A DNA stretch of 41,855 nt, taken from NCBI GenBank assembly GCA_944363735.1, contig CALVVB010000005.1:1-41855 (forward strand). The letters run 5' to 3'. Source of the stretch: an uncultured Bacilli bacterium. GTDB lineage: Bacteria > Bacillota_I > Bacilli_A > RF39 > UBA660. How positions within the stretch are numbered: the first letter of the stretch is position 1; every line of letters starts with the position of its first letter. A program made the translations under genes and the position numbers. Shown in pieces: positions 11,906-15,840 of the stretch. The notes beneath the pieces were generated by a model. That model worked only from the letters and a program-made list of their open reading frames with translations. It was not told where the DNA came from and searched no databases.

Positions 11906-14900
11906 CTATTTCTTCCTACGTTCTACTTTAAGTCCCATCATTAAATCATTAACTGGAATATTTCTATCAAGTTTTTCATCTTTTATGACTTCAATTGATA
12001 AAGTTTCTTCTTTAACATAATTTAGATATTTATCAAGCATTATGTCAATAATTTCTTCTCCATTATAGTAAAGATTAATTCTATCAGTAATAACAAAATC
12101 AGCTTCTTTTCTAAGACTTTGTACTTTTCTAACAACCTCACGAGCTAATCCTTCAAGGATTAAGTCTTCAGTTAATGTCGTATCTAATACAACACTAATA
12201 TTACCATTACTTGAGGCACAGTAACCTTCTTTATTCTTAAGTGTTGTAATAATCATATCTTCAGTTATTTTTAATTCTTCACCTAAAAAGTCTGTAGTAT
12301 AGTAACCTGATTTAATCTGATTAACATCATTGATATTAAACTTACTAACTAATTCTTGGAATTCTTTGATATTTGAACCAAACACCTTACCAACAACTCT
12401 AAAGTTAGGTTTAACTATATAATCCATGTAAAGACTCATATCTTCTTCATAAACTACTTCTTTTACATTTAACTCTTCTAAAATTATAGATTCTAACTCT
12501 CCTACTACACTTTGAGCAGCTTTAGGAACGATTATAAAGTTAAGTGGCTGTCTAACTTTAATAGATACATCTTCACGAGCATTACGTCCTAAACTACAAA
12601 TATCACGCACTAAACTCATTCTGTTTTCAAGTTCACTTGATATTAATGTTTCATCTGCTTTCGGAAAATCCGCTAGATGAACACTTTTGCCATCTGTTAA
12701 ATTACGATAAATTTCTTCTGTGACAAATGGAGTAACAGGAGCTGCCATTTCACATAAAGTTAGTAAAACTTCATAAGTAGTTTGATAAACTGCCTTTTTA
12801 CTTTCTGTAAGTTCACTATCCCAGAATCTTTTTCTATTACTTCTAATATACCAGTTAGAAAAATCATCATTTAGGAAATCTACGATATAATGAACTACTT
12901 TATTTAGATCATATTCATCATAGGCTTTAGTAACAAGTGCTAAAGTATTATTAAGTCTAGATAATAACCATTTATCAGTAATATCACGTTCATTTACAGG
13001 AACATTATAAACTCTAGGATCTATTTTATCTGCATTTGCATACATCTCAAAGAATGAATATGCATTTTTAAGAGTTGATAAGTATTTAGAATTAACTTCT
13101 TTTAAACCATCATTATCAAATTTAATTGGTGTCCAGACAGGAGAAACATAAGGTAGATAAAATCTAATAACGTCAGTTCCAAATTCATTCATCAAATCAA
13201 ATGGTTTAACAATATTACCTTTACTTTTACTCATCTTCTTCCCATACTTGTCAAGTAGCAAGTCATTAACTAATACATTTTTATATGGGCTTTTACCGGT
13301 AACAAAAGTAGAAATTAACATAAGTGTATAAAACCATCCTCTAGTTTGATCAATTCCTTCACAGATAAAATCTGCTGGAAATTGGTCTTCAAACAATTCT
13401 TTGTTTTCGAATGGATAATGGTATTGTGCAAAAGGCATAGAACCTGAATCAAACCAGCAGTCAATAACTTCACTAACACGACTCATCTCTTTACCACATT
13501 CAGGACATTTAATATGAATATCATCAACATATGGACGATGTAATTCTACCTTCTCATCTATATCTTCTATTGCTTTTTCAATAAGTTCAGCTCGTGAACC
13601 TATCATTTCTTCGTGTCCACAACTACATTTCCATAAAGGTAATGGAGTACCCCAGTACCTATTTCTAGATACTGCCCAGTCATTCATATTTAATAGCCAG
13701 TTACCAAATCTTTTTTCTCCAACAAAAGTAGGATACCAGTTAACACTATTATTATTCTTAACAACTTGATCTTTTATTTTTGTAACTTCTAAATAGTATG
13801 ATGGTTTAGCATAGTATAAAAGTGGAGTATCGCATCTCCAACAATGTGGATAATTGTGTTCCATTTTAATTTTCTTAAACAATTTACCATTTTCTTTTAA
13901 ATATTTAATAACTTCTATATCAGCATCAAATACTCGCATACCTTGCCATAAACCTTCAGTATATTTACCATCTTCACCAACTGGATTTAAAACAGGTAAA
14001 TTATATTTCTTACCTACATTATAGTCATCTTGACCAAAAGCAGGAGCGATATGAACAATACCAGTACCATCTTCCATAGTTACATAGTCATCTACTGTTA
14101 CAAAGAAGGCTTTTTTATCAACTTTTAAACTAGGTATTAACTGTTCATATTCCATAAACTCTAAGTTCTTACCACTATATTCTTCTAATACTGTATATTC
14201 ATCTCCAAGTACTTTAGAAGCTAGTTTTTTGCCCACAATAAATTTATTACCTTGGCTTTCTACTAATACATACTCTTCTCTTGGATTAACACATAGTGCT
14301 ACATTACTAATCAAAGTCCAAGGAGTAGTAGTCCACACTAAGAAATAAACATCTTCATCTTTTTTCTTCATTGGAACAATAACAGTATTAGCAGTTACTT
14401 CTTTATAACCTTGTGCTACTTCATGAGAAGCAAGACCAGTACCACATCTTGTACAGTATGGAAGTATCTTATGCCCTTCATAAAATAATCCTTCATCAAA
14501 GAATTTTTTAAGAATCCACCATTCTGTTTCTATATAGTTATTATCATAAGTAACATAGGGATGCTCTAAATCAATAAATTGTCCCATTTCTTTAGTTAAA
14601 TCAGAGAAAGCCTTCTCATTTTCCCAAACACTTTCACGACATTTTTGATTGAATTCTTTAATACCATAGTCTTCGATATCTTTCTTACTACTAAAACCTA
14701 GTTCCTTTTCTACTTGTAACTCTACAGGAAGTCCATGAGTATCCCAACCTACTTTACGAAGAACTCTATACCCTTGCATAGTCTTATATTTACAAAAGGT
14801 ATCTTTTAAAAACTTAGCCATCATATGATGTAGTCCTGGTTTCCCATTAGCAGTTGCAGGTCCATCATAAAAGACAAAGTTTTCACAATCCTTTCTATTA

Positions 14901-14998
14901 TCTATACATTGTTTTAAGATATCCATCTTCTCCCAAGTCTTTAAAATGTCCATCTCAACTTCATGAGTTTTACCTTTTTCAAGTTCTTTAAATGCCAT
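11906..14998 (-). CDS. ileS: Isoleucyl-tRNA synthetase, type 2 (eukaryote-like), with GLHH signature
   Basis: The 1030-aa class I enzyme charges tRNA-Ile. GWDTHGLPVELQVEKELG, KMSKSKGN (about 585-592) and the C-terminal anticodon-binding part identify IleRS, and the length and sequence style place it in the type-2 branch, which is naturally less sensitive to mupirocin. The HIGH signature, expected after YDGPATANGKP, reads GLHH (55-58): the first and third positions of HxGH are swapped to GxHH. Metal-binding cysteine pairs occur around CTRCG and CSCG/CPECG. The gene is controlled by a T-box leader with an AUC specifier and a GGAGGGAG ribosome-binding site. It is the only IleRS gene in this window, and its own T-box suggests it is the housekeeping copy; the rest of the genome is not visible. 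Confidence 0.97.
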   Translation of the reverse strand: MAFKELEKGKTHEVEMDILKTWEKMDILKQCIDNRKDCENFVFYDGPATANGKPGLHHMMAKFLKDTFCKYKTMQGYRVLRKVGWDTHGLPVELQVEKELGFSSKKDIEDYGIKEFNQKCRESVWENEKAFSDLTKEMGQFIDLEHPYVTYDNNYIETEWWILKKFFDEGLFYEGHKILPYCTRCGTGLASHEVAQGYKEVTANTVIVPMKKKDEDVYFLVWTTTPWTLISNVALCVNPREEYVLVESQGNKFIVGKKLASKVLGDEYTVLEEYSGKNLEFMEYEQLIPSLKVDKKAFFVTVDDYVTMEDGTGIVHIAPAFGQDDYNVGKKYNLPVLNPVGEDGKYTEGLWQGMRVFDADIEVIKYLKENGKLFKKIKMEHNYPHCWRCDTPLLYYAKPSYYLEVTKIKDQVVKNNNSVNWYPTFVGEKRFGNWLLNMNDWAVSRNRYWGTPLPLWKCSCGHEEMIGSRAELIEKAIEDIDEKVELHRPYVDDIHIKCPECGKEMSRVSEVIDCWFDSGSMPFAQYHYPFENKELFEDQFPADFICEGIDQTRGWFYTLMLISTFVTGKSPYKNVLVNDLLLDKYGKKMSKSKGNIVKPFDLMNEFGTDVIRFYLPYVSPVWTPIKFDNDGLKEVNSKYLSTLKNAYSFFEMYANADKIDPRVYNVPVNERDITDKWLLSRLNNTLALVTKAYDEYDLNKVVHYIVDFLNDDFSNWYIRSNRKRFWDSELTESKKAVYQTTYEVLLTLCEMAAPVTPFVTEEIYRNLTDGKSVHLADFPKADETLISSELENRMSLVRDICSLGRNAREDVSIKVRQPLNFIIVPKAAQSVVGELESIILEELNVKEVVYEEDMSLYMDYIVKPNFRVVGKVFGSNIKEFQELVSKFNINDVNQIKSGYYTTDFLGEELKITEDMIITTLKNKEGYCASSNGNISVVLDTTLTEDLILEGLAREVVRKVQSLRKEADFVITDRINLYYNGEEIIDIMLDKYLNYVKEETLSIEVIKDEKLDRNIPVNDLMMGLKVERRKK

Positions 14999-15009: not shown

Positions 15010-15240
15010 CCTAAACAAAAAAATCTATGAATCACAAGGGTGTTAAAAATAACACTGTACCACCTTGGTTCATAGATTTTGTCTATCTTATTAATATAAC
15101 GGTTTTACCCGGCTTTAACTTATCCTTAAAGCACAACTTGAAAGTGATCCGAAATAAGTTCCTTTATTCTTTTCCACCAACCAAGAACTCTCTTTAAAAT
15201 TTCCTTACTTCCGTCTTTCGCACTTGTTTTAAATAAAACT
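15010..15240 (-). promoter_or_regulatory. T-box riboswitch (tRNA-Ile) upstream of ileS
   Basis: The minus strand carries a full T-box: the AAAGAGAG box and GGTTGGTGGAA segment of stem I (near 15195-15170), the specifier AUC within CGGATCACTTT (15148-15146), the T-box core AAGGTGGTACAGTG (15066-15053), and a long terminator hairpin (15077-15023) followed by seven T. Uncharged tRNA-Ile would pair with the specifier and the T-box core, break the terminator and turn on ileS. Confidence 0.95.
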
Positions 15241-15246
15241 AAACAA

Positions 15247-15276
15247 AATATATCACAGTTTTAGTAGTTTATGCAA
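15247..15276 (-). promoter_or_regulatory. Promoter of the T-box/ileS transcript
   Basis: TTGCAT (15276-15271), an 18-bp spacer and TATATT (15252-15247) with a TG one base before the -10 box (extended -10). Transcription should start near 15240. Confidence 0.6.
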
Positions 15277-15282
15277 CTATTT

Positions 15283-15774
15283 TTACAAATGTTTTATTAT
15301 TTTCTTTTCCCCAACAATAATATTAGTAAAAACAGAATCCATTTCCATCATACTAATGCAGCCTATTTCTTCTTTATCTAATTTTAACTTTAACTCATCT
15401 TTACTAAGTAGTATACCACCTGCTGTACTATTATATCCAGTTATAGTAATACAACTCTAATACCGTAAATATTAGTTTTATGATTTCCCCTCAAAACATC
15501 TTCTAAGTCTACTTTAATTATAATAAGAATAAAGATTATTAATAGAAGTCTTATTATCTTTAGCATATTTCTTTAATTCTTGATATTTTATTAAAATAAC
15601 ATCATCTTTTAAACTATCAGGATACTTATATAATAATAAGTAAAGCTGTTTTAAAAACAATTTAAATTGATGCTCTTGATAATCATCCTAATCATATTTT
15701 ATATTAGAAATTCTCTCACGCCATTCAACAGTTTGATTTTCCTTATTTGCAAAATTAGTTACTCTAGCAATCAT
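15283..15774 (-). pseudogene. Broken unknown gene with stops and frameshifts
   Basis: An ATG at 15774 with GAAGG upstream opens a frame reading MIARVTNFANKENQTVEWRE, which meets a TAG after YD, continues in the same frame (DDYQEHQFKLFLKQLYLLL and onward), hits further stops near 15520, and resumes in other frames as ITGYNSTAGGILLSKDELK to a stop at 15283. The reading can be followed through about 490 bases only with one stop and at least two frameshifts. I do not recognise the protein family. The region 15283-15840 otherwise holds no gene; the 3' end of the remnant adjoins the ileS promoter. Confidence 0.6.
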
Positions 15775-15840
15775 AGTATTTTCTACCTTCAATTAGTGCT
15801 TATTATATGTTAAAGAAAAGAAAAAAGCAAGAATTCTATC

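Follow-up and report, generated by a model that had tools for sequence, protein, structure and literature searches.

In type 2 isoleucyl-tRNA synthetases (IleRS2) the class I signature, canonically HxGH, can occur with its first and third residues exchanged. This G/AxHH form was present in 86 of the 163 IleRS2 of a set published in 2023, while HxGH was found in all IleRS1 of the same set (PMC10485003). The third histidine replaces the first in catalysis and at the same time clashes with mupirocin; the shift in the inhibition constant (Ki) for mupirocin that accompanies the exchange amounts to two to three orders of magnitude, up to about 1000-fold (PMC10485003). The ALHH enzyme of D. radiodurans has a Ki of 6.6 mM against 8.1 µM for its HVGH mutant; conversely, mutation of HVGH to GVHH raised the Ki from 1.08 to 460 µM in P. 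megaterium IleRS2 and from 0.20 to 35 µM in TtIleRS2 (PMC10485003). ALHH is the natural non-canonical enzyme tabulated in that study, with S. griseus as the other natural case cited, and the reason why bacteria keep either type, a growth-rate cost versus antibiotic pressure, was left open there (PMC10485003).

The window, a stretch of 41,855 nucleotides from an uncultured Bacilli bacterium (contig CALVVB010000005.1), very probably carries the sole and essential IleRS gene of its host, encoding a mupirocin-excluding IleRS2 of the G/AxHH subclass that is controlled by an AUC-specific T-box and belongs to a lineage exchanged with IleRS1 within the family (Table 1). The enzyme resembles those of D. 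radiodurans (ALHH) and S. griseus in being of type 2, in the swap of the first and third signature residues and in its housekeeping role. It differs from them in its GLHH motif, in its host, a reduced-genome member of the animal-gut Bacilli, and in an N[DE][LM] segment preceding KMSKS.

Table 1. Coordinates of ileS, its active-site motifs and its leader in the window
Feature	Position	Strand	Basis
ileS, type 2 isoleucyl-tRNA synthetase (IleRS2), 1030 aa	11906..14998	-	ORF; TIGR00392; best PDB match P. megaterium IleRS2
GLHH (residues 55-58) replacing class I HxGH signature	14825..14836	-	Gapless alignment to 8c8u and 8c8w; DNA read; kept in relatives
NDL (residues 578-580)	13259..13267	-	Alignment and counts; coordinates computed from residue numbers
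Canonical KMSKS, the second signature (residues 588-592)	13223..13237	-	Motif found at 588; coordinates computed from residue numbers
T-box leader, upstream of ileS	15033..15232	-	RF00230, 73.5 bits, E 1e-15, full length; gathering score 93
T-box specifier codon AUC (isoleucine)	15146..15148	-	cmscan alignment and sequence
T-box sequence AAGGUGGUAC	15057..15066	-	Sequence and cmscan alignment

The coordinates originally predicted for the IleRS gene were upheld and its strand was corrected to minus, on which the reading frame is free of stops, whereas the plus-strand reading is full of them. The product scored 948 bits against NCBIfam TIGR00392 (cut-off 621). Four structures of P. megaterium IleRS2 were its best solved relatives by phmmer, followed by T. 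thermophilus IleRS, and it matched P. megaterium IleRS2 with 1001 bits as opposed to 380-388 bits for the IleRS1 of P. megaterium and S. aureus. Identity to P. megaterium IleRS2 (8c8u) was about 44% over 1038 columns, with a TM-score of 0.91 for an AlphaFold model (mean pLDDT 82, pTM 0.73) whose input was the family alignment. The protein falls on the IleRS2 side of a branch with 99% support in a quick tree, in which a Nonomuraea reference, its longest ORF being in the wrong frame, was not counted as evidence. These scores and this placement agree with the type 2 identity proposed originally. IleRS1 are characterised by a C-terminal cysteine zinc site, an example of which is present in one IleRS1 compared here (L146); CxxC occurs in the window protein only at residues 182, 386 and 498, and none lies near the C-terminus. 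The HYPFE motif, reported for the eukaryote-like group of IleRS (PMC4861432), is found at residue 527. Judged by its sequence, the ileS product is a bacterial (eukaryote-like) type 2 IleRS. Its closest relatives are from uncultured Bacilli, including Candidatus Onthousia faecigallinarum (79%).

Residues 44-66 of the protein read YDGPATANGKP-GLHH-MMAKFLKD, the motif being encoded by GGACTACATCAT. In phmmer alignments GLHH stands, without gaps, opposite HVGH in the wild-type IleRS2 of P. megaterium (8c8u, 8c8v) and opposite GVHH of the engineered mutant 8c8w. Helix alpha-1 of the AlphaFold model begins at residue 56, the site of the HIGH motif. The placement of GLHH at the HIGH position was thus confirmed, and with glycine first and histidine third the window IleRS carries the G/AxHH motif. 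A sequencing error can be discounted, since GLHH, GIHH or GVHH occurs in 132 of 134 related IleRS2 sequences (not deduplicated, window included), while of the other two one has HIGH and one is truncated. The member with HIGH (L074, 269-3202) belongs to the GxHH clade, is 66% identical to the window protein and retains NEL and KMHKS; its motif represents either a natural reversion to the canonical form or local recombination. P. megaterium had been offered as a natural precedent for GxHH, which proved mistaken: its natural IleRS2 is HVGH with a Ki of 1.08 µM, and GVHH is the engineered mutant. That enzyme shares fold and type with the window IleRS, and the 8c8w mutant shares the motif pattern, but the natural form is moderately resistant and is a second copy beside an IleRS1.

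By analogy with P. megaterium IleRS2 mutated to GVHH, for which a structure is solved, the swap of the first and third signature residues would let the third histidine assume the catalytic role normally played by the first, and its side chain would fill space that mupirocin requires for its ring and its nonanoate tail. A Ki in the high-micromolar to millimolar range would be expected. Hyper-resistance of the window IleRS is a sound prediction from the motif and from the Ki shifts published for the class, in agreement with the strong resistance originally proposed. The Ki values of P. megaterium are not transferable to the window enzyme, because its adenine-side residue is Leu580 and not histidine. 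Counted from KMSKS, Leu580 takes the place of His582 in P. megaterium IleRS2 and of Phe586 in the IleRS1 of that species, where Phe586 makes the stacking contact with mupirocin or adenine (PMC10485003). Residues 578-580 are N[DE][LM] in all 134 clade sequences; the HxGH-bearing IleRS2 checked at that site have GH (L131, Sutcliffiella, Paenibacillus) or GL (L132). N[DE][LM] accompanies GxHH in this lineage, for which shared ancestry could be the cause. No account of mupirocin in RF39-type Bacilli was found in the open-licence literature searched.

Further variants of the signature motifs were seen among the genomes compared. KMHKS replaces KMSKS in 55 of the 134 family IleRS2 (not deduplicated; e.g. 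L031, L033-L037, L041 and L103), a variant of which PMC10485003 makes no mention. HxGT, in which the fourth histidine is replaced by threonine, occurs in IleRS1 as HAGT in three genomes, all of one genus (L146 in G410, L309 in G429 and L311 in G145), and as HIGT in a genome of the window's own family (L162 in G084), where it arose independently; no account of HxGT in IleRS1 was found in the open-licence literature searched. Four family genomes hold a divergent IleRS2 of about 35% identity (L169, L170, L171 and L172) with HVGH, GIHH, KIHH and GIHH, respectively, and KFSKS or KFSKT. The lysine-initiated KIHH falls outside the published G/AxHH. One of these genomes (G095, loci L172 and L173; listed contamination 4%) carries both the divergent IleRS2 and the common one, the latter as a fragment.

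No second IleRS was found in the draft genome to which the window belongs (1.25 Mb, 94% complete), where the other class I matches were weak (24-40% identity), in keeping with class Ia synthetases of other kinds. The window gene is accordingly read, from this draft, as encoding the sole and essential IleRS of the cell. It could be asked whether the gene was instead acquired as a MupA/MupB-like resistance determinant, residing alongside a normal sensitive IleRS. The mobile mupA also encodes an IleRS2, with mupirocin resistance expected in both cases, and the plasmid matches retrieved were mostly staphylococcal mupA. MupA and MupB of staphylococci are, however, plasmid-borne extra copies, and identity of the window IleRS to MupA is only 43-44%. 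Membership of either family was rejected, the NCBIfam MupA and MupB profiles scoring 933 and 907 bits against cut-offs of 1900. The draft genome showed no other ileS, the gene has a T-box leader, and the same IleRS2 lineage is the single IleRS in most genomes of the family (see below), all of which render such an origin most improbable.

At the Rfam gathering threshold no RNA was reported in the window; the T-box surfaced in a search by E-value. The T-box of a relative of the same genus (L097) scored 73.4 bits, and the ileS leaders of other relatives mostly 88-115. An isoleucine specifier codon and a UGGN bulge are both present in the window leader, and AUC stands at the same place in four relatives (L097, L116, L160 and L168). 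The UGGU of AAGGUGGUAC presumably pairs with the ACCA terminus of tRNA-Ile when this is uncharged. On the alignment and these elements the T-box upstream of ileS is considered probably real, with a score below the gathering score; it would sense uncharged tRNA-Ile and so set ileS expression. The view of the gene as a sole, T-box-controlled housekeeping copy was thereby borne out as far as the 94%-complete draft and the isoleucine T-box match extend.

Downstream of ileS lies a Mur ligase gene, and past the T-box are ORFs that include dUTPase, nrdG-like and nrdD genes. About 600 bases (15240-15840) between the T-box and a 394-aa ORF are without an ORF of at least 80 aa. The usual site of ileS in Bacillota, also seen in relatives here, is the sepF-divIVA locus. 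In the window genome this locus is located elsewhere and the ORF that follows it is not ileS but, read by eye, a RelA/SpoT-like synthetase; the window ileS therefore sits away from the usual site.

This IleRS2 (at least 54% identity) was present in 113 of 145 genomes of the family, IleRS1 (29-34%) in 20 and the divergent IleRS2 alone (about 35%) in three, while no IleRS was found in the remaining nine. When 284 genomes from the other families of this class were searched, just two proved to have an IleRS2 by score (G330 and G257), both with HIGH, and the remaining matches were at IleRS1 level or lower. The nearest named outside relative found was the IleRS2 of the clostridial Acetoanaerobium noterae, compared here by protein sequence, which is sister to the family's clade (57% identity over 98%) and has GIHH and a VNDL segment; the search outside the class covered plasmid records, and nearer clostridial relatives may exist. 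The opposition of housekeeping to acquired is a false choice, because the Bacilli sampled from other families have nearly all IleRS1 and the nearest outside relative found is clostridial. Of the claim that the gene is a housekeeping copy rather than an acquired one, the first half stands; the second does not, as the lineage has been exchanged with IleRS1 many times in the family.

In an rpoB tree covering 67 genomes of the family whose type is clear, the IleRS1 and IleRS2 carriers are interspersed; no fewer than 14 changes are needed, and a grouping of all IleRS1 carriers in one clade was rejected (p about 1e-86). One row, G021a, which had a branch length of 10 in a first rpoB tree and is probably a misread frame, was left out of the second. 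In the ileS trees, by comparison, the family IleRS1 form one clade, apart from the IleRS1 of other Bacilli, and the family IleRS2 form another. Sister genomes 79-91% identical in RpoB may differ in type. One such pair (G044, L160, and G023, L116; 89%) shares the order sepF-divIVA-T-box-small ORF-ileS-cation-efflux gene, yet ileS encodes an IleRS1 in G044 and a GxHH IleRS2 in G023. The T-box is present in both, and DNA similarity ends just past it and restarts 105 bases beyond the end of the IleRS1 gene. A second pair (G084, L162, and G129, L128) has sepF-divIVA upstream and hrcA downstream at 72-75% DNA identity, with homology up to the ileS start codon and again from 82 bases past the ileS end. 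In a third set IleRS1 (G016, G006) and IleRS2 (G090, L025) occupy the same place, preceded by sepF-like and divIVA genes and followed by a sigma-factor gene. Both types are found in the same sepF-divIVA-ileS place in three sets of loci, with homology ending at or near the ends of ileS.

Nearly all family genomes are draft metagenome-assembled genomes and several ileS contigs are short, which raises the question of whether the mosaic of types is an artefact of binning. This explanation is considered improbable. The same-locus exchanges are each contained in one contig, between flanks that are homologous on either side, and are, as contig-level evidence, independent of binning. One contig carries both rpoB and ileS in a genome with IleRS1 (G083) and in four with IleRS2 (G094, G097, G099 and G048). 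The family IleRS1, forming one clade apart from other Bacilli, are not outside contamination. The IleRS1 and IleRS2 gene trees conflict in part with the rpoB tree, and the switching may have arisen either from an ancestor with both types followed by loss, or from gene transfer within the family.

GxHH may also have been kept for reasons other than antibiotics, being inherited with a transferred gene or neutral, with resistance as a by-product. We are aware of no mupirocin producer in this habitat, HIGH has reappeared in one relative (L074), and the second signature is likewise variable in many relatives. The motif is nevertheless conserved in nearly all relatives and in A. noterae, and is therefore regarded as maintained. 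This reading, judged unlikely but deserving of consideration, concerns why GxHH evolved and not the predicted resistance. A broader proposal, more doubtful and offered tentatively, is that the single-copy essential IleRS may behave as an exchangeable allele, passing many times between a sensitive IleRS1 and a drug-excluding GxHH IleRS2, sometimes precisely at divIVA-ileS, under selection by IleRS inhibitors in the animal gut.

The GxHH motif and its effect were already published in 2023, and the window gene adds a further example. The new element is the repeated swapping of IleRS1 and IleRS2 in the family, sometimes at the same chromosomal spot. Reduced-genome gut Bacilli depend on an enzyme predicted to be hyper-resistant to mupirocin as their only IleRS, and the frequent switching within their family represents a natural experiment on why bacteria keep the sensitive or the resistant type.
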